NCBI GenBank assembly: GCA_024280295.1
Contig: JAJRQK010000013.1
Span: 1 to 64,000, forward strand
Source of the DNA: Bacteroidota bacterium
GTDB taxonomy: Bacteria > Bacteroidota > Bacteroidia > Flavobacteriales_D > Crocinitomicaceae
Direction: 5' to 3'
DNA length: 64,000 bases
Below, one piece after another: positions 15,574 to 25,236 of the stretch. A program made the translations under genes and the position numbers. Each line of letters opens with the position of its first letter. Position 1 is the stretch's first letter. The notes below the pieces were generated by a model. It worked only from the letters and a program-made list of their open reading frames with translations. It did not search any database and was not told the origin of the DNA.

Positions 15574-16894
15574 CATCATTTCAATTACAAGTTTCGGTTC
15601 ATTTGCTCAACAGACGATTGATAAAATTGCCGCACAAGTTGGAGACAAAGTGATTTTACTTTCTGATATTCAAGCTCAAAAAATACAAGCAATTCAAGCT
15701 GGTATTACAATTTCACCAGAAATGGATTGTGAAATGCTTGAGGAATTAATGTATCAGAAACTTTTGATTACTCAAGCCATTCTTGATAGCGTTGATGTAA
15801 CTTCGGAGCAAGTTAATTCTGAAATGGAGAGTCGTCTTCGCGTAATTGAGAATCAAATCGGCGGACGACAGAAGATGGAAGATTTCTACGGGAAAACTGT
15901 AACCCAGATAAAAAATGAATTCCGCCCTATCATCCGAGAACAATTAATGGCAAGAGAAATGGAATATACTATTGCTAACGGAATTAGTGTTACTCCACGT
16001 GAGGTGAAAGATTTTTATACAAAAATTCCCATTGATAGTATTCCATTCATAAATACACAATTAAGCTTTCAGCAAATTGTGATTTATCCCGAAATATCAA
16101 ATAAAGATAAAGACATCGCACGAGCAAAAATCGAGAAAATTCGCAAAGATATTATGAATGGGAAAGCATTCTCCACTCAAGCAAGAATTCATTCTATGGA
16201 TCCAGGAAGTGCTAAAGATGGAGGAAAAATAAAAGCATCCAAAGGAATGATGGTCAAACCATTTGAGTCTGTTGTGTTTGCGCTGAAGCGAGATGAAGTA
16301 TCTGAGGTCTTTGAAACTGAGTATGGTTTTCATATTATCAAACTAGGGAAGAGACTTGGAGATGACTATACATGTCAACATATTTTGATCGTTGCTGAAT
16401 TTTCTGGAGATGCTGTTGAAAATGCTGCTGTTCGACTTGATTCTTGCTATCAATTATTAGGATCAGAAAAAATAACTTGGGATGATGCAGTAGTTGAATT
16501 TTCAAATGATGAAACAACAAAACAAAATAAAGGAATTATTACAAATCCAGCAACTGGTGAACAAACGTGGGACATGGAAGATCTAAATCAAATTGATCAA
16601 CAGATTTATCTTCTGACTACAAATATGGAAGTTGGTGATGTTTCTGAGCCAAACCTCTACACAAATATTTACGAGCGAAAACAAGGTGTTCGTATTGTTC
16701 GGCTGATGGATTCCAAGCCACCTCATAGAGCCAATCTAAAAGATGATTATACATTAATCAAACGTGCTGCTGAAAACGAAAAGAAACAAATGATTATCAA
16801 TGAATGGGTAGTTTCAAGAATCAAAACCACCTATATAAGTATCAATGATCCCTACAAAGAATGTGATTTCACAAACCCTTGGAAGAAAGATTAG
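15551..16894 (+). CDS. SurA-like periplasmic chaperone/peptidylprolyl isomerase
   Basis: After a signal peptide (MRLRLIFSIISITSFGSFAQ) the SurA N-terminal domain reads IDKIAAQVGDKVILLSDIQ. The parvulin domain lies at about residues 172-275 (LSFQQIVIYPE ... GGKIKASKGMMVKPFESVVFAL ... YGFHIIKLGKR). A second, diverged copy begins at CQHILIVAEF (about 279) and lacks the usual GG-x-L-G core. Its length of 447 residues is close to that of SurA (about 430). It is expected to deliver outer-membrane proteins through the periplasm. Confidence 0.92.
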   Translation: MRLRLIFSIISITSFGSFAQQTIDKIAAQVGDKVILLSDIQAQKIQAIQAGITISPEMDCEMLEELMYQKLLITQAILDSVDVTSEQVNSEMESRLRVIENQIGGRQKMEDFYGKTVTQIKNEFRPIIREQLMAREMEYTIANGISVTPREVKDFYTKIPIDSIPFINTQLSFQQIVIYPEISNKDKDIARAKIEKIRKDIMNGKAFSTQARIHSMDPGSAKDGGKIKASKGMMVKPFESVVFALKRDEVSEVFETEYGFHIIKLGKRLGDDYTCQHILIVAEFSGDAVENAAVRLDSCYQLLGSEKITWDDAVVEFSNDETTKQNKGIITNPATGEQTWDMEDLNQIDQQIYLLTTNMEVGDVSEPNLYTNIYERKQGVRIVRLMDSKPPHRANLKDDYTLIKRAAENEKKQMIINEWVVSRIKTTYISINDPYKECDFTNPWKKD

Positions 16895-16929
16895 AAAGTT
16901 TATCTTTAGAAACTAAATCAAGAACAACT

Positions 16930-17886
16930 ATGTCAGATAAGGCTGGAATTGATCAACTTGTTGCTCATTATAAAGAATTAAAAAACGAAATTCATAAAGT
17001 TATCGTTGGACAAGACGATGTAGTTGATCAAGTACTCATCTCAATTTTCTCAAATGGTCACTGTCTACTTGTTGGAGTTCCAGGATTAGCAAAAACACTT
17101 TTGGTAAATACGATTTCTGATTGTCTCGGACTTGGATTCAATCGAATTCAGTTTACACCAGACCTTATGCCTTCAGATATTATTGGAGCTGAAATATTAG
17201 ATGAAAAACGCGAATTTAAGTTTGTAAAAGGTCCCTTGTTTACCAACATCATTTTAGCAGATGAAATTAACCGAACCCCGCCTAAAACACAATCAGCTTT
17301 GCTCGAAGCAATGCAAGAACGCTCTGTTACAACAGCTGGAATAACTCACAAACTACCTGCACCGTTTTTCGTATTGGCAACACAAAATCCAATTGAGCAA
17401 GAAGGGACATATCCTTTACCTGAAGCACAACTTGATAGATTCATGTTTAACGTTTGGGTTGATTATCCTTCATTTGCAGAGGAAATGGCAATTGTAAAAT
17501 CTACAACCACAAATCAATCTGTAACATTGAACCAGATTTTGTCTGGAGAGCAAATTATGAATTATCAAGACTTAGTCCGAAGAATTCCAGTTGCTGACAA
17601 TGTTCTCGAATATGCAGTGAAGTTAGTTGCTAAAACACGAGTCAATGACGAAAGCGCTCCAGAATTGACAAAGAACTACATTACTTGGGGAGCTGGTCCA
17701 CGTGCATCTCAATACTTGATCGTAGGTGCCAAATGTCATGCTGCCCTAAATGGTAAATATTCTCCAGACATTGAAGATGTGAAGGCGGTTGCAAAACCAA
17801 TTCTTCGTCACCGCTTAGTACGTAATTACAGAGCCGAAGCTGAAGGTTATTCAATGGACCGAATTATTGAAGAATTGATGGGGTAA
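16930..17886 (+). CDS. MoxR-family AAA+ ATPase
   Basis: The 318-residue ATPase has Walker A in GVPGLAKTL (about residues 53-61), Walker B in IILADEINR (about 113-121), then PPKTQSALLEAMQE and sensor 1 in LATQNPIEQEGTYPLPEAQLDRF. MoxR proteins act as chaperones for von-Willebrand-factor-A proteins. None is adjacent here, which is unusual because MoxR genes are often followed by DUF58 and Bat genes. I start at ATG 16930; an upstream TTG would overlap the SurA-like gene and adds non-conserved residues. It is the last gene of the foldase operon. Confidence 0.93.
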   Translation: MSDKAGIDQLVAHYKELKNEIHKVIVGQDDVVDQVLISIFSNGHCLLVGVPGLAKTLLVNTISDCLGLGFNRIQFTPDLMPSDIIGAEILDEKREFKFVKGPLFTNIILADEINRTPPKTQSALLEAMQERSVTTAGITHKLPAPFFVLATQNPIEQEGTYPLPEAQLDRFMFNVWVDYPSFAEEMAIVKSTTTNQSVTLNQILSGEQIMNYQDLVRRIPVADNVLEYAVKLVAKTRVNDESAPELTKNYITWGAGPRASQYLIVGAKCHAALNGKYSPDIEDVKAVAKPILRHRLVRNYRAEAEGYSMDRIIEELMG

Positions 17887-17983: not shown

Positions 17984-18015
17984 TTTGCTCTCCACGTAAT
18001 ATTTCCGTACTTTTG
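17984..18015 (+). promoter_or_regulatory. strong Bacteroidota promoter of the T9SS module
   Basis: TTTG (17984-17987) and TACTTTTG (18008-18015) are perfect matches to the -33 and -7 elements, separated by exactly 20 bp. The ATG at 18057 follows 41 bp later. This is the best promoter in the window and drives the four-gene cluster 18057-25236. Confidence 0.8.
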
Positions 18016-18056
18016 CACGGCTGAAGATACTACTAATCAAACTAATTACGCTGATT

Positions 18057-18374
18057 ATGAAATACGGAATACTACTCTCCTTCGCACTAAGTTTTGCGCT
18101 AACCTCTTTCTCGCAAACTTACAGTTACTCCTTTGAGGCAACCTTTGATACCGAAGACCTCCAATTACTTGAGCAAACTTGTCGATCAATCGAATACGTT
18201 TCTGCGTGTAAAGTGAAATATAAAATAGAAAGTGGAAAAGGTGAAATTATTGTTCGTGCTATGTCTCAAAAAGAGAAGAAAGAAGCAACTGAAAGCTTTT
18301 CACCAATAGACTTGAAACGATTACTGATCGATTCAGGGGCCACACCATTAGAATTCATCAAACTCAACGATTAA
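18057..18374 (+). CDS. small secreted protein leading the T9SS module, unknown function
   Basis: The 105-residue product has a signal peptide (MKYGILLSFALSFALTSFSQ). The mature part has a beta-alpha-beta-like rhythm (YSFEATFDTEDLQLLEQTC, then ACKVKYKIESGKGEIIV), with a pair of Cys residues about 9 apart, which would suit a small ferredoxin-like (HMA-type) fold; this is inference. It is the first gene behind a strong promoter and only 10 bp before the large cargo gene. It may therefore be a chaperone-like or structural partner of the module. Confidence 0.8.
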   Translation: MKYGILLSFALSFALTSFSQTYSYSFEATFDTEDLQLLEQTCRSIEYVSACKVKYKIESGKGEIIVRAMSQKEKKEATESFSPIDLKRLLIDSGATPLEFIKLND

Positions 18375-18384
18375 ATCTAGTCTT

Positions 18385-21300
18385 ATGAAACGAATTATTC
18401 TCTCCGCATTTGCACTAGTAACTCTTACTACTTACGGTCAATCAGATGGATGTTCTGCAGCAACTGCAATTAGCATTACTGCAACATGCGTATCCCCAAC
18501 ACCTGGAACGACTATCGGAGCTACACAAACAATAGCTGGTTGTACGGGAAATGCAGACGATGATGTTTGGTATCAATTTGTTGCAACAGCAACATCACAT
18601 CAAATTGTAGTTGCCCCATCTGCTGGGATGGATGTCGTTGTACAATTATTCTCCGGAGGTTGCGCAACACTAGCTTCTCTTGTTTGTAAAGATGATGGGC
18701 TAACAGGTGTTAATGAAATCATCAATTATAGCGGACTTACCATAGGAAATTCTTATCGAATTCGCGTGTACGACTATTTTGCAGGATCAGGTTCTGGGAC
18801 CTTTACCATTTGTGTTACCAACCCACCACCTGCGCCATCGAATGACGCCTGTGCAGGTGCAATTCCTTTGACGGTAAATAGTACTTGCATCACTACTGTA
18901 GCAACAACTGATGGAGCCTCTCAGTCTCAAGCAGGTTGTGCTGGAGCAGCAGATGATGACGTTTGGTTTAGCTTCGTAGCAACTAACTCTCTTCAAAATA
19001 TTAAAGTTCATCCAATCGATAATTTGGACCTCGTTTATCAGGTTTTCAGTGGATCATGCGGAACCTTATCCTCTCTTGCCTGTGTCGATAATACTCTAAC
19101 ATCTCAAGATGAACAAGAAAATATTGTGGGGCTAGTTCCAGGATTGACATACTACATTCGCGTGTACGATTATTATACTGGAACAACTGGAGATTTCGAT
19201 ATCTGTATCACAGGAACACCAACAGCGATTCCAACAAACGATGAAGCCTGTACAGCAATTCAATTACCAGCAGTAACTAGTTCGTGTATTTTCTCTCAAT
19301 TTACTACCGTCGGAGCAACAGCTTCCTTAGGATCTCCTACTCCATCATCTTGTATTGGAGGTAGTGGAGCAGCGATTGGAGATTTTTCTGCAAGTTCAAG
19401 TGACGTCTGGTTTGCTATTACAGTACCTGCATCAGGAAATGTTGATGTCACCGCTCAACCAAACGGTGGAGCAGGTTCAATTTCTGATGGAGTTATGGTT
19501 TTATATTCTGGGACGTGTGGAAATTTAACGCAAATTGTTTGTTCTGATGATAACAACTACCCAGGGTTAGGTAATGATCTTCTTCCATTGATTTCTGAAA
19601 GCGGATTGAGTCCAGGAAGTACGGTTTACTTGCGCTACTTTGGATTTGGAACTTCAACAGGGGCATTTGGAATTTGCGTCTCCACTGCAACAAATGATGA
19701 TTGCGCAAATGCATTGTACATTTGTGACATTAATGGTTACAGTGGATCAACAAGCGCATCTTACACCCCAGATCGACCGGACAATATGCGAGGAAACAAT
19801 GAAGATATCAATGGTGTTAATCAACCCGACGGAATCAATACTGGTGGGATTTTTGGTGCTGGCGGACCTTGGGGAACTGGCTCTCCATTTTTCGATGTCA
19901 ATATTGATAATAATAGCTGGATCAAGTTTACTGCATCTGCAACCACAGCTACTTTAAGTGTTAGTATATTTGATTGTTGGGTTGGAAACTATCCTTCAGG
20001 TGGATTACAAATGCAAGTTTTCGAAGGCGTTAATTGCGCAAGCTTTGTACCCGTTTCTAATTTTGAAGAAAGCAGTACTGGGTTTATAATTACAGCAAAC
20101 GGTTTGATCATAGGTAATGATTACTACTTGATGATAGATGGCTATGCAGGAGATATTTGCGGATACACAATCACTGCAAACTCAGGAGTTCAATTTCCTG
20201 ACATCACAAATGTAGCTCCAATTTGTGTTGGAGCATCTGTCACATTAGTCGCTCCTCCTGGTGCAACATCCTATGATTGGCAACATGACGGATCAACAAC
20301 CCAAAGTGTAACAGTGACACCTTCAACAACAGAAACATACTTTTTAGAAGTTACCGGATTATGCGATTTCAAACAAACATTAGATGTAACGGTAATCGTA
20401 AATCCATTACCAAATGTAACGGTAACAAATGGCCCGTCTGTAGATATTTGTGATGGAAGTTCAGCAACTTTAATAGCATCGGGAGCCTCAACCTATACAT
20501 GGAGTAATTCAACATCTGGTGCTTCAACAACAGTTTCACCCACAGTTACAACGAACTATACAGTTACTGGGGTTGACGTGAATGGCTGCGTAAATACAGA
20601 CATCGTGGCAGTCAGCGTTAACCCAAACCCAACCTTAAGTGCAACACCAACAGCAGTAGATTCTGATTGTGGTGCTTCAAACGGTGCACTTAACGGAGCA
20701 CTTGGAAGTGGCGCACCAACTGTTTCTTATTCTTGGTCTGATGGATCAACTATAATCGGTACTTCACAAAATTTGACGAACATCCCCGCTGGAACCTACT
20801 TCTTGACTATAACTGACGGAAATACATGTAGTTCCACATTTGGACCATATAGCGTTGTAAATCCAGGTGCGCCTCCCACTCCATCTGTTGTAGTAATAAA
20901 TGGTTCACCTTGTTTGAATGGATCTTCTCAACTTGTCGCATCAAACACAACCCCAGGTGTAACATTTAATTGGACAGGACCTAATGGTTTTACAGCAAGT
21001 GGAACATCAATTAATTTGGCTAATGTTACATCAATTGAAGCAGGAATCTACTGTGTATCATCTTCTATTGGGGGCTGTACCGGCCCATCAATTTGTGAAC
21101 TGATCACCTTATTAGCAAACCCAATTGTAGATGTAACTGCTGCGAATAACGACTCAACAATCTGTTTAAATCAGAACTTTGATTTAACTGCTTCCGGTGC
21201 GTCTACCTATACATGGACAGGACCCAATGGGTTTAGTTCGACTGCAACTAGTGCTACAATTAGTAATGCTACCAACACAGAACAAGGATATTACTTCGTC

Positions 21301-22137
21301 ACAGGAACAGATTTAAGCGGATGTATCGGAACGGATTCGATACTAATAACAATTCTACCATTGCCTATAGTTACGGCAACAGCCGATATCAGTTCCCAGA
21401 CATATTGTAATGGTGGAATTGCCACGTTAACAGCTACTGGTGGGTCGACCTATTCATGGACTGGACCTGCAGGATTCATAGACACTTCGAGCACTACGAC
21501 TCTACTCGATTTAGTTGCTTCTAATCAAGGGTTCTATATTGTAACTGCCATAGATGCGGAGGGCTGTGCAAATCAAGACAGTGTCGAACTAATTATTATT
21601 ACTGATGTCCCAGCTGGAGTTCCAGAAGACTTCACGCTATGTCCTGGAGAGCTAATCACATTAGTGGGATCTGGAGGTACATCTTATACATGGACAGGGC
21701 CACTAGGGTTTAACTCTACAGATCAAAACCCATTAGTTACAGATGATGCAGATTTTAGCAATGAAGGGTATTACTATTTAACAGTCGTCGATTCGAATAA
21801 TTGCCTTGGCTATGACTCAGTATATGTTGAAGTGACAAACAACGCAGATTGCCTTTTCATTCCAAACTTACTTACTCCAGATAACAATAATTTAAATGAT
21901 ACGTGGGAAATAACGGGCATTGACAAATTTATTGATGCGGAAGTTGAAATCTATAATCGCTGGGGGAACCTAGTATTTTCTGCCTCACCTTATCTAAACG
22001 ACTGGGCCGGTCAAGTTAACCATGGCGCAACTATTGGCAGCAATGGGAAAGTTCCTGTTGGTACTTATTTCTATATCATCCGACTAAACGAAGGAGATAA
22101 ACCACCTTATCAAGGCTTCATTGAAGTTCAATATTAA
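18385..22137 (+). CDS. giant T9SS type B cargo protein with Ig-like repeats and gliding-type C-terminal domain
   Basis: The 1250-residue protein begins with a signal peptide (MKRIILSAFALVTLTTYGQ). Residues about 20-440 hold three related domains, each with a DDDVW(Y/F)xF or SSDVWFAI core and an FSGxC turn, typical of Bacteroidota surface proteins. Residues about 605-1150 are five to six Ig/PKD-like repeats with TYTWTGPxGF motifs. The last 90 residues (IPNLLTPDNNNLND, VEIYNRWGNLVF, PVGTYFYIIRL) are the gliding-motility-associated C-terminal domain, i.e. a type B T9SS sorting signal. It should be exported and attached to the cell surface, probably as an adhesin. Confidence 0.95.
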   Translation: MKRIILSAFALVTLTTYGQSDGCSAATAISITATCVSPTPGTTIGATQTIAGCTGNADDDVWYQFVATATSHQIVVAPSAGMDVVVQLFSGGCATLASLVCKDDGLTGVNEIINYSGLTIGNSYRIRVYDYFAGSGSGTFTICVTNPPPAPSNDACAGAIPLTVNSTCITTVATTDGASQSQAGCAGAADDDVWFSFVATNSLQNIKVHPIDNLDLVYQVFSGSCGTLSSLACVDNTLTSQDEQENIVGLVPGLTYYIRVYDYYTGTTGDFDICITGTPTAIPTNDEACTAIQLPAVTSSCIFSQFTTVGATASLGSPTPSSCIGGSGAAIGDFSASSSDVWFAITVPASGNVDVTAQPNGGAGSISDGVMVLYSGTCGNLTQIVCSDDNNYPGLGNDLLPLISESGLSPGSTVYLRYFGFGTSTGAFGICVSTATNDDCANALYICDINGYSGSTSASYTPDRPDNMRGNNEDINGVNQPDGINTGGIFGAGGPWGTGSPFFDVNIDNNSWIKFTASATTATLSVSIFDCWVGNYPSGGLQMQVFEGVNCASFVPVSNFEESSTGFIITANGLIIGNDYYLMIDGYAGDICGYTITANSGVQFPDITNVAPICVGASVTLVAPPGATSYDWQHDGSTTQSVTVTPSTTETYFLEVTGLCDFKQTLDVTVIVNPLPNVTVTNGPSVDICDGSSATLIASGASTYTWSNSTSGASTTVSPTVTTNYTVTGVDVNGCVNTDIVAVSVNPNPTLSATPTAVDSDCGASNGALNGALGSGAPTVSYSWSDGSTIIGTSQNLTNIPAGTYFLTITDGNTCSSTFGPYSVVNPGAPPTPSVVVINGSPCLNGSSQLVASNTTPGVTFNWTGPNGFTASGTSINLANVTSIEAGIYCVSSSIGGCTGPSICELITLLANPIVDVTAANNDSTICLNQNFDLTASGASTYTWTGPNGFSSTATSATISNATNTEQGYYFVTGTDLSGCIGTDSILITILPLPIVTATADISSQTYCNGGIATLTATGGSTYSWTGPAGFIDTSSTTTLLDLVASNQGFYIVTAIDAEGCANQDSVELIIITDVPAGVPEDFTLCPGELITLVGSGGTSYTWTGPLGFNSTDQNPLVTDDADFSNEGYYYLTVVDSNNCLGYDSVYVEVTNNADCLFIPNLLTPDNNNLNDTWEITGIDKFIDAEVEIYNRWGNLVFSASPYLNDWAGQVNHGATIGSNGKVPVGTYFYIIRLNEGDKPPYQGFIEVQY

Positions 22138-22147
22138 TCTAAGAGAT

Positions 22148-23083
22148 ATGAAATTAAGATTAACAATTCTCCTATTTATTTTTGGCTTTGGAATGAGTTC
22201 AAGTACTGCTCAACAAGATGAGCAACTTTCACTATACATGTACAACAAGCTTCAGTTCAACCCAGCTTATGCAGGATCACGCGATGCTATCAGTACGATT
22301 GCAATTGCACGTTTTCAATGGGTCAATTTCGAGGGCGCGCCAACTACTCAATGGTTCAGTATTCAAGCACCGTTAATGCAAAAATCAATCGGTGTTGGTA
22401 TGCACTTGGTGAATGATCGAATTGGTAAACGAACTCGCACCGGAGCTTATTTTGATTTAAGTGGAAGTATTGCTCTAAATAACAGATCTGCACGATTAGC
22501 GGCAGGGATTTCTGCGGGATTTGATAATGTTGGATTTGATTTTTCGGATCTTCAAGTAAATGATATTCAAGATCCTTACTATGGAAATGGACGCTATGGT
22601 GAAACAGCACCAAACCTTGGAGCAGGACTTTACTTTTATAGTGATAAACATTTCCTAAGTATTTCTGTCCCTAGACTTCTTGAAGCGGAAATTACAGCCC
22701 TTGCAACATCTACGGGAAGTTTAATTCAACAGTTAAACACACGACATTTCTTCATCTCAGGTGGGTATGTTTTTGATTTGAATAGTGTTTTTAAGTTAAA
22801 ACCAACGACACTAATTAAATATACCCCTGGAGCACCACTTACTGCAGATGTAAATCTAAGTCTTTTGATGTATGATAAATTATGGACAGGGTTGATGTAC
22901 AGATTTCACGAAGCAGCTGGAGTTAACATCGTATATAATATCAAAAACACTTTTAGCATTGGATATGTCTATGATTTCCCAATCAATGGATTGAGAACCT
23001 ATCAATCTGGATCGCATGAAGTCTTTCTCCGATATGATTTTGCTCCAAAGAAAGCGGCCTTCACCTCACCTCGATATTTCTAA
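22148..23083 (+). CDS. PorP/SprF family type IX secretion outer-membrane protein
   Basis: The 311-residue protein has a signal peptide (MKLRLTILLFIFGFGMSSST) and the PorP/SprF hallmark right after it: QQDEQLSLYMYNKLQFNPAYAGSRD. The remainder is a beta-barrel with the typical FDLSGSIAL, LAAGISAGFDN and FLRYDF end. SprF-like proteins are each needed to deliver or anchor a partner type B cargo encoded next door, as known for SprF and SprB of Flavobacterium johnsoniae. Here the partner is the 1250-residue protein, 10 bp upstream. I start at ATG 22148; the upstream TTG lies in the previous gene. Confidence 0.95.
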   Translation: MKLRLTILLFIFGFGMSSSTAQQDEQLSLYMYNKLQFNPAYAGSRDAISTIAIARFQWVNFEGAPTTQWFSIQAPLMQKSIGVGMHLVNDRIGKRTRTGAYFDLSGSIALNNRSARLAAGISAGFDNVGFDFSDLQVNDIQDPYYGNGRYGETAPNLGAGLYFYSDKHFLSISVPRLLEAEITALATSTGSLIQQLNTRHFFISGGYVFDLNSVFKLKPTTLIKYTPGAPLTADVNLSLLMYDKLWTGLMYRFHEAAGVNIVYNIKNTFSIGYVYDFPINGLRTYQSGSHEVFLRYDFAPKKAAFTSPRYF

Positions 23084-23085
23084 GT

Positions 23086-25236
23086 ATGAGAAGTTTACTC
23101 TTATCTATTTCCATCTTAACCGTTTTTTCAGTTTCGAGTCAAGTCAAACAAAAAATGGCAGATCAGTTGTATGCACGAATGGAATATTCGAAATGTGTAC
23201 ACATGTACACTGAATTGTCAACCAAATGTCTTGAAAATAAGAAAAAAGCAGACTGGGAAAACGTTCGAAAGGCAGCAATTTCGAATTACCATTTGTTCAA
23301 TATGGACAAAGCGATTTATTATTTCACTAAATTGCAAGGAAAGAATCTGTTGACTGAATCGGATCGAGAATCAATGATTCAAGCTTTACGGTACGAAGAG
23401 AAATATGGTAAGAGCAATGAATTAATTCGTGAAAGTACTTCCTTGTTCCCTACAAATTCATTTTTCACATCTCTGAACGATCAAAAAGATCAATTTAGTG
23501 AACTATTCGCAGATTCAGCATTTTACAGAGTCACTATTTCAGACGTGAATTCAGGTCGAGGCGATTTTGGAGCTGCATACTTTGGAGAATCACTTGTCTT
23601 TGTTTCAAAATCGAGAAATGTTGGCTTTATTAATCCAAAATACGGTTGGGATGACGATTTTTACCTTAATATTTTGCAGGCAAATTATGATATTGATTCT
23701 AGTTTAACCGAACCAATATTGATGAAGCATAATTTCTTATCACGGGCTCATGATGGACCAGTTAGTTTTTCACCAGATGGGTCACAAATGGCTATCACCA
23801 AAAATGAAATGGGTAAGAAACATGGAAAAGATGTTGTTGTTTTAGCGCTTTATTTTTCCAATCTTTCAAATGGTGGATGGACTGATCTCGTTCCTTTTGA
23901 GTTCAACAACTCTGATTACAATATGGGGCACGCCGTATATTCTCCAGATGGAACGAAACTCTATTTCGTTAGTGATAAACCAGGTGGATTTGGTGAGGCT
24001 GATATTTATATGTCAACTCGGCTAGGGAGTGGTTGGTCAGAACCAAAGAACTTGGGGGGAAATATAAATACCACTAGAGACGAAATGTTCCCATTTGTGG
24101 AAGATGATCGATTATACTTCTCTTCAAACGGTCATTATGGACTTGGAGGAATGGACATCTTCGAAACAGCTGTATCTGGCCAAGAGCCTTGCTCTAACAT
24201 TGGATATCCAGTGAATACATCACATGATGATTTTGGATTAATTTTTGATGCTTCAGGCGAGATCGGTTTTTTATCGAGTAACCGAGGAAAATCTAACGTT
24301 GATAATTTGTACCATGTCAAAAAACGTGTTGTTAAAATTGACTTAATTGGAAATGTCTTCGCTCAATACAAAGAATTGGAAGCTGTTCCAAATCAACTTG
24401 TTTACATCAAGGATAATTCTACACAATTAATGGATACGCTTATCACTTCTTCATCTGGAGAATTTACACATCCATTAAAAATCAATCGAACTTATCAGAT
24501 CTACACAAAAAAAGACGAATTCATCTTGTTGAATGAAGTCAGTTTATCAACAATGAAAATCAATCGTGATTCTACATTTCGTTGTGAGCTTGTGTTGAAA
24601 CCAACAACAATTAAGATTCATTTACGTGTTCTTGAGAAGGAGTCTCGTAAGATAATTCCAAATGCAACCACAACAATTTCAGATTATCAACTAGGTTGGG
24701 ATACTACACTTATTACGAATAGTGAAGGTATAGTAACGCTAACGGTTGATCGAAATAAGGTCTTTTGGGCGCATGGAGCAAAGAAAGGATTTATAGATGC
24801 CGATATATCTTTTAATTCTTCAAATGAGAATGACAAAGTGATTGACCTCGAATTGGCTCTCCCTCCGATTAAACGAGGTGAGCGATTTAAGTTGGAGAAC
24901 ATATTCTATGATTTAAGTAAATCAACGCTAAGGGATGAAAGCATGGTATCACTAGATCGACTGGCTGATTTTTTAATCAAGAATGATCTAAGAATTGAAT
25001 TAAGTGCTCACACGGATTCTAGAGGTAGTGGATATTACAATCAACGATTATCGCAAGCTAGAGCTCAAAGTTGTGTAGATTACCTCAAGAAAAAAGGTGT
25101 AAAATCAATAAACATGCTCGCTAAAGGTTACGGAGAGAATAAGCTGATCAATCGTTGTAAGAACGGCGTAAACTGTTCAGAAGAAGAGCATCAAGAGAAT
25201 CGAAGAACCGAAGTTAAGATATTGGAAGTCCGATAG
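23086..25236 (+). CDS. OmpA-family protein with PD40 propeller repeats, T9SS-associated
   Basis: A type I signal peptide (MRSLLLSISILTVFSVSSQ) is followed by a helical TPR-like part (to about residue 140). WD40-like PD40 propeller repeats cover about residues 215-410 (VSFSPDGSQMAI, AVYSPDGTKLYFVSDKPGG, RLYFSSNGHYGLGGMDIF). Two carboxypeptidase-regulatory-like stretches follow. The C-terminal OmpA domain (about 605-716) has IELSAHTDSRGSGYYNQRLSQARA for peptidoglycan binding. This architecture resembles PorE-like proteins and the usual third member of cargo-SprF clusters. It starts 2 bp after the PorP/SprF gene. Confidence 0.93.
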   Translation: MRSLLLSISILTVFSVSSQVKQKMADQLYARMEYSKCVHMYTELSTKCLENKKKADWENVRKAAISNYHLFNMDKAIYYFTKLQGKNLLTESDRESMIQALRYEEKYGKSNELIRESTSLFPTNSFFTSLNDQKDQFSELFADSAFYRVTISDVNSGRGDFGAAYFGESLVFVSKSRNVGFINPKYGWDDDFYLNILQANYDIDSSLTEPILMKHNFLSRAHDGPVSFSPDGSQMAITKNEMGKKHGKDVVVLALYFSNLSNGGWTDLVPFEFNNSDYNMGHAVYSPDGTKLYFVSDKPGGFGEADIYMSTRLGSGWSEPKNLGGNINTTRDEMFPFVEDDRLYFSSNGHYGLGGMDIFETAVSGQEPCSNIGYPVNTSHDDFGLIFDASGEIGFLSSNRGKSNVDNLYHVKKRVVKIDLIGNVFAQYKELEAVPNQLVYIKDNSTQLMDTLITSSSGEFTHPLKINRTYQIYTKKDEFILLNEVSLSTMKINRDSTFRCELVLKPTTIKIHLRVLEKESRKIIPNATTTISDYQLGWDTTLITNSEGIVTLTVDRNKVFWAHGAKKGFIDADISFNSSNENDKVIDLELALPPIKRGERFKLENIFYDLSKSTLRDESMVSLDRLADFLIKNDLRIELSAHTDSRGSGYYNQRLSQARAQSCVDYLKKKGVKSINMLAKGYGENKLINRCKNGVNCSEEEHQENRRTEVKILEVR

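Follow-up and report, generated by a model that had tools for sequence, protein, structure and literature searches.

A small exported protein encoded directly before one class of type IX secretion cargo in Bacteroidota, a candidate cargo-dedicated partner

The locus and its genes

The subject of this report is a small gene at the head of a four-gene run in a 64,000-nucleotide stretch of DNA, hereafter the window (positions 1 to 64,000 of contig JAJRQK010000013.1, assembly GCA_024280295.1), from a Bacteroidota bacterium of the family Crocinitomicaceae. The gene (18057..18374; this and all other features of the unit lie on the + strand) encodes a protein of 105 aa, P0001, which we call the leader; directly 3' of it is the gene for a 1250-aa substrate of the type IX secretion system (T9SS) at 18385..22137, which we call the cargo. 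We believe that the description of the leader as a cargo-specific partner is well supported at the bioinformatics level.

The leader is predicted to start with a Sec signal peptide, leaving Gln20 as the mature N-terminus, and to form a beta-alpha-beta-beta-alpha-beta domain over residues 20-103. The cargo holds three GBD_T9SS_assoc and five Ig_7 stretches and ends in a type B C-terminal sorting domain (CTD), matched by CHU_C (E 8e-26, 90.4 bits, cut-off 27) and by TIGR04131 (E 8e-12, 45.2 bits, cut-off 35). Its residues 446-622 (19720..20250) are conserved, have no match in Pfam, and serve below as the marker of leader-linked cargos. Two further genes follow, both optional members of the unit: a shuttle or anchor barrel of the PorP/SprF family (22148..23083; PF11751 E 3e-71; TIGR03519 247.7 bits, cut-off 90.55) and a PorE-like protein of 716 aa (23086..25236) in which Pfam matches PD40, CarboxypepD_reg and OmpA. 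The mechanically called open reading frame (ORF) of the barrel opens at TTG 22121; ATG 22148 is the likelier start, and the protein is then likely of 311 aa. The PorE-like protein stays below the cut-offs of both the PorE model (307 bits, cut-off 600) and the CHU_0125 model (333 bits, cut-off 620), and its sequence has no lipobox Cys. The four genes are separated by gaps of 10, 10 and 2 bp; their order, their spacing and the kinds of the three larger proteins are thus as given by the first-pass annotation, a reading of this DNA made from its letters before the present analysis.

The same annotation put a promoter before the leader. TTTG at 17984-17987, a 20 nt spacer and TACTTTTG at 18008-18015 are present, and this TTTG-N20-TACTTTTG arrangement (17984..18015) agrees with the Bacteroidetes promoter consensus, a promoter type outside the scope of the sigma-70 scan of the window. 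The strict pattern TTG-N17-23-TAnnTTTG is found within 250 nt upstream of 15 of 55 leader homologues, in all cases 8-44 nt before the start, and is absent there from the other 40; control windows downstream contain it in 26 of 1080. The motif upstream of leader homologues exceeds chance. Further upstream of the window's unit lies a gene for a MoxR-type AAA ATPase (16879-17886); an ORF similar to MoxR also stands upstream of L031, L032, L033, L035, L036 and L048, and the flanks differ at the other loci.

Runs of a type B cargo, PorP/SprF and PorE are known from the PG1035-PorP-PorE complex of P. gingivalis (PMC9143113) and from five operons of F. johnsoniae, for example Fjoh_3952-3951-3950, the substrates of which are thought to be static (PMC12618676). 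The window is similar in having a type B cargo, a PorP/SprF barrel and a PorE-like OmpA protein in one run. It differs in the small leader, which the available portions of these two papers do not mention, and in the absence of a lipobox Cys from a protein whose counterpart PorE is described there as a lipoprotein with TPR, propeller, carboxypeptidase-regulatory-like and OmpA domains (PMC9143113). No description of the leader was found in the open-access literature, in line with its earlier placement outside the described cargo-SprF-PorE set; a paper on two tandem genes, which in its available part are pep25/lbp26, led nowhere in this respect (PMC9950754). We regard the leader as a component new to an otherwise known kind of operon. 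SprC/SprD, encoded upstream of SprB in F. johnsoniae, are reportedly accessory genes of a cargo-SprF operon.

Pairing of the leader with the cargo N-terminal region

Searched with the single leader sequence, 150 genomes of the host's family yielded a match in 29, among them the host itself. The profile A1, built from 27 leaders (L031, L045 and L056 were left out), matched in 21 of 299 genomes of the order and in 25 of 395 of the class; these matches show that the leader represents a true family, which extends to relatives across the class.

Besides the window, 57 loci were examined: the family search contributed 29, one of them a paralogue in the host (L039), and the wider searches the other 28. 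The gene immediately following the leader codes in 55 of them for the cargo N-terminal region seen in the window (E 1.2e-19 or better). The other two, L083 and L131, are false hits, in which the signal-peptide end of the profile matched ORFs of 224 and 554 aa. Homologues located mainly away from T9SS cargo genes, the outcome named in the first-pass annotation as speaking against its proposal, are therefore not what is observed. Leader and cargo are separated by -38 to 99 nt (median 10), and 46 of the 55 leaders lie no more than 30 nt from the cargo; at L129 the cargo frame is broken, and the gap is 66 or 662 nt depending on the ORF chosen. The host's paralogous pair (L039, G000:C14) consists of a leader and a cargo of 861 aa ending in a type A CTD, after which there is no SprF or PorE-like gene. 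A unit of the same genus (L031, genome G135) is decayed, its leader being cut to 90 aa and its cargo retaining only 67 open codons; no cargo marker match was obtained in this genome at E 1e-5.

The pairing was also considered in the reverse direction, with cargo residues 446-622 as the query. Close or remote versions of this region are present in 90 of the 150 family genomes, and a leader accompanies 32 of the 33 strongest places (E 1.1e-42 or better): 27 with a leader already found and five (L132-L136) with a diverged one that the single-sequence search had missed. The remaining place (L137, G064:C15) has no leader, and the N-terminal part of its cargo is in another frame. In the class sample, which shares genomes G000 and G013 with the family sample, the marker at E 1e-25 gave 29 places in 27 of 395 genomes; a leader is present at all 28 assessable ones (26 found by the profile, L222 and L223 on inspection), the place in G708 (L224) starting at a contig edge and being left out of the count. 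Named genomes, whose records overlap in part with those of the other samples, were scanned as well and gave 29 marker loci, their hosts including Crocinitomicaceae, Fluviicola, Brumimicrobium, Vicingaceae and metagenome-assembled genomes (MAGs) of Bacteroidales. Apart from L249, cut at its 5' end, and L254, which is remote (36% identity), 25 of 27 have the leader; the leaderless L238 and L241 encode cargos of about 870 aa with a type A CTD. At L245 and L252 the leader is more than 1 kb before the marker ORF because the cargo frame is broken. A second copy with a leader exists in G064 (L035) and in the MAG of L241, Dive100_bin10.67 (L246); these leaders could act in trans for the leaderless cargos of the two genomes.

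The part of the cargo that the leader follows can be seen from the composition of the units. Residues 26-625 of the window's cargo are covered by BLAST in 51-53 of 54 leader-linked cargos. Of the 47 with a complete C-terminus, 44 are of type B; L039, L122 and L130, scanned singly, match type A only, so a link of the leader to the type B signal as such is rejected. Among the 48 assessable units, 28 have SprF beside the cargo and 20 do not; a PorE-like gene follows in 21 of the 48. Not included in the 48 are the false L083 and L131, the contig-end loci L037, L044, L045, L081, L082 and L121, and the decayed L031; the contig of L056 ends before the PorE position, and an SprF-like ORF further downstream in L112 is uncounted. 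The “four-gene module” of the first-pass annotation consequently does not hold as the conserved unit, which is the leader together with the cargo; the co-occurrence with cargo-SprF pairs that it proposed to look for holds for the cargo, SprF being optional. Considering the N-terminal coverage, the CTD types and the presence of SprF and PorE as counted, the leader is a partner of the cargo N-terminal region, independent of CTD type, SprF and PorE.

The T9SS output of the host genome (G000, 3.46 Mb) is very large: it contains 29 CHU_C type B matches above the cut-off and at least 150 type A matches, with 150 of 194 type A candidates scored. As controls, we took 40 genes: 27 other CHU_C genes above the cut-off and, the cargo of the paralogue aside, the 13 top-ranking type A genes. 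Both leader-linked cargos were thus excluded on purpose, as was an 85-aa CHU_C fragment. By a crude hydrophobicity test, a small signal-bearing ORF lies no more than 30 nt upstream of four of the 40 (L161, L166, L171, L186), that of L166 looking spurious; L178 and L189 have one further off, and L162, L167, L168 and L170 have no intact-looking start. A small Sec leader is not a general trait of T9SS cargos, and the pairing is special, not unique.

The leader protein and a second leader family

P0001 has no match in NCBIfam and a single chance-level hit in Pfam. When the 27 leaders were scanned singly against Pfam, no family was matched by more than one of them; tRNA_bind_2 (E 0.013, 1 of 27 members) was rejected as the leader's family. 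The leader profile gave nothing below E 0.04 among PDB sequences, the best HMA chain having E 0.84. The leader thus matches no known family, in keeping with the “unknown” protein of the first-pass annotation. None of the T9SS CTD models of Pfam and NCBIfam matched P0001, and the signal test was passed by 54 of 55 leaders; the leader is predicted to be exported by Sec and is without the cargo's type of export signal.

The AlphaFold2 model of the leader (predicted local distance difference test, pLDDT, 85.5) is strand-helix-strand-strand-helix-strand. The solved structures nearest to it by Foldseek and VIA are ferredoxin-like domains; the top match is a circularly permuted ribosomal S6 (Z 11.5), and HMA copper domains reach Z values of up to 10.1, VIA-align placing the leader model on the HMA7 domain 3dxs with Z 10.1 and a root-mean-square deviation of 2.1 over 74 residues. 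The model predicts a ferredoxin-like (HMA-type) domain without a metal site. The small HMA domains of Atx1, CopZ and CCS (domain 1) are alike in the predicted fold; unlike them, the leader is exported, lacks C-x-x-C and has no sequence match to them. After residue 18 this motif is absent from 55 of 56 leaders, and the sole match (L122) lies upstream of the likely Met of that protein; a role as a metal chaperone is rejected for want of C-x-x-C in mature leaders.

The ratio of nonsynonymous to synonymous substitution rates (dN/dS) of the leader is 0.08-0.27 in six close pairs; for the first 600 codons of the cargo it is 0.03-0.13 in the five of these pairs where both sequences are long enough. 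Invariant residues are present across 27 leader sequences. The leader is a functional protein under purifying selection, with a constraint looser than that of the cargo. Charge complementarity between leader and cargo as a general rule was not supported: in 51 pairs the leaders have a median isoelectric point of 5.4 (5.0 in the window) and 13 exceed 7, while all 51 cargo N-terminal regions are below 5.

A second leader family (A4) was opened from the control locus L161, where the small gene overlaps the cargo gene by 4 nt. Its host-genome member, P0005 (115 aa), is matched in 59 of the 150 family genomes; among 198 class genomes the profile matched two, each belonging to the family of the host. 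Out of 62 places, 30 loci were examined; in 28 the family precedes one shared type of cargo N-terminus, other than that of the window, and at L201 and L214 it stands before another secreted protein. The AlphaFold2 model (pLDDT 84.8) has the same order of elements as the window leader with the second helix split, and its nearest structure is the copper chaperone CCS (Foldseek E 1.5e-3). A further group, A2, is bridged to A1 by L222 and L223, which in one-locus searches match A2 with E 4e-21 and 2e-18 and A1 with E 2e-5 and 3e-7.

Proposed role and its alternatives

The first-pass annotation offered “a cargo-specific chaperone” or a subunit of the surface structure. The specificity for the cargo is well supported by the strict pairing; as to the choice between the two, we presume, with a probability of about one half, that the leader works in the periplasm as a partner dedicated to the cargo, and most likely as a chaperone or foldase of the cargo N-terminal region (about residues 20-620). 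The leader would be translated just ahead of the cargo from a common mRNA, pass the inner membrane by Sec, shed its signal peptide and fold as a small metal-free HMA-like domain. It could then bind the jelly-roll-like N-terminal region of the cargo on its exit from Sec, keep this region soluble or aid its folding, and release the cargo when the T9SS translocon takes it up; in units that have them, SprF and the PorE-like wall anchor would subsequently retain the cargo at the surface. Of this chain, the gene order, the strict pairing, the independence from CTD type and from SprF and PorE, and the purifying selection are observed, the promoter, the Sec export and the fold come from prediction, and the steps of binding, chaperoning and release are inferred. 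Being made ahead of the cargo, being strictly paired with its N-terminus and being indifferent to its export signal all agree with a chaperone or foldase that is dedicated to the cargo and works after Sec and before T9SS. The second leader family, with its similar predicted fold before another class of cargo, speaks for this reading as well.

Chaperoning in the periplasm has a precedent in T9SS: the N-terminal prodomains of gingipains chaperone in cis during periplasmic folding, according to the available part of a 2017 review (PMC5445135). A gingipain prodomain, as described there, is a part of the cargo chain and a protease inhibitor, whereas the leader is a separate protein. SkpA, a periplasmic protein of the Skp-fold chaperone family, matters for T9SS export and appears in the portion available to us as a general part of the extended translocon (PMC10994853); the leader is a small protein associated with a single class of cargo. 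Type III secretion chaperones are similar to the leader in the adjacency and coupling of their genes to the cargo, in small size and in having no cargo-type export signal.

The main rival, which we rate as less likely, is a co-exported subunit: the leader would bind the folded cargo, pass the T9SS pore with it and end in the surface structure. A protein exported by Sec without a T9SS signal should stay periplasmic unless the cargo takes it along, so such a subunit would need a carrier, and the nearly one-to-one pairing and the independence from SprF and PorE are in its favor. On the other hand, the leader diverges faster than the cargo region on which it would sit, and cargo copies without a leader occur; moreover, we know of no demonstrated case of such riding in T9SS, though no search was aimed at it. 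Clearly less probable is a periplasmic inhibitor or quality-control factor that blocks premature binding of the cargo to a ligand or to itself, or marks misfolded cargo. It would make sense of a leader made ahead of a cargo whose GBD-like and Ig-like domains could act as an adhesin; however, no known inhibitor or protease-adaptor domain was matched in the leaders. That the leader is an upstream ORF serving translational coupling alone, its translation setting cargo expression and its product having little function, agrees with the tight spacing and with the start-stop overlap in several units and is nevertheless hardly credible in view of the dN/dS values, the invariant residues and the confidently predicted fold.

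Several observations weigh against a dedicated chaperone. In 16 units the leaders are 26-51% identical to that of the window, versus 62-79% for the cargo N-terminal region. There are the leaderless cargos of L137, L238 and L241 and of the remote L254, and the majority of the host's other T9SS cargos lack such a small gene before them. Coverage of the cargo persists beyond residue 625 in 41-50 of the 54 leader-linked cargos, so that CTD type and length (861-2345 aa), more than coverage by itself, carry the contrast between the cargo halves. The kinship of the leader groups is also affected: hhalign probabilities between them are 95.6-95.7 with signal peptides and fall to 48-52 without (A1-A2 E 1.8e-4; A1-A4 probability 52, E 1.4e-4), against at most 3.4 overall and at most 2.6 for A1-A4 in controls of 30 column shuffles each; between A2 and A4 the values are 72 with signal peptides and 0.4 without. 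Because of this drop, a common origin of A1 and A4 is suggested only. A third family, A3, is unrelated to A1 by profile comparison.

The A3 family comes from the weaker marker loci L138-L151 (n=14), of which nine have a small ORF of 86-142 aa before the distant cargo and five have none; the nine overlap the cargo start or end no more than 10 nt from it. Six of them (L138, L139, L140, L149, L150, L151) make up A3, exported proteins of 86-96 aa overlapping the cargo gene by 4 nt.

It is tempting to propose that T9SS cargos with a jelly-roll-type N-terminus own dedicated periplasmic chaperones, namely small Sec-exported proteins of HMA fold whose genes directly precede those of the cargos. Two or more diverged families of them would serve two classes of cargo, and small proteins unrelated to them would occupy this position before more distant cargos. 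We regard this generalization as speculative. If true, T9SS would have a class of dedicated chaperones corresponding to the effector-specific ones of type III secretion. The question is of interest per se, considering that the 2017 review called it unknown whether the folding of T9SS cargos or their arrival at the translocon depends on chaperones (PMC5445135) and that a 2023 review still calls the stage of final effector folding unclear (PMC10202324). With a leader nearly inseparable from one cargo class and following its N-terminal region rather than the export signal, the chaperone question becomes directly testable; for annotation, the leader provides a family that can be named and a means of predicting the cargos that require a partner.

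Some small proteins found in the course of this work may be recorded here. The mature part of A3 leaders looks helical from the sequence. Exported proteins of 129, 142 and 132 aa are encoded directly before the cargo genes of L145, L146 and L148, and in the host genome L171 and L186 have exported proteins of 151 and 127 aa encoded 12 and 28 nt before T9SS cargo genes.

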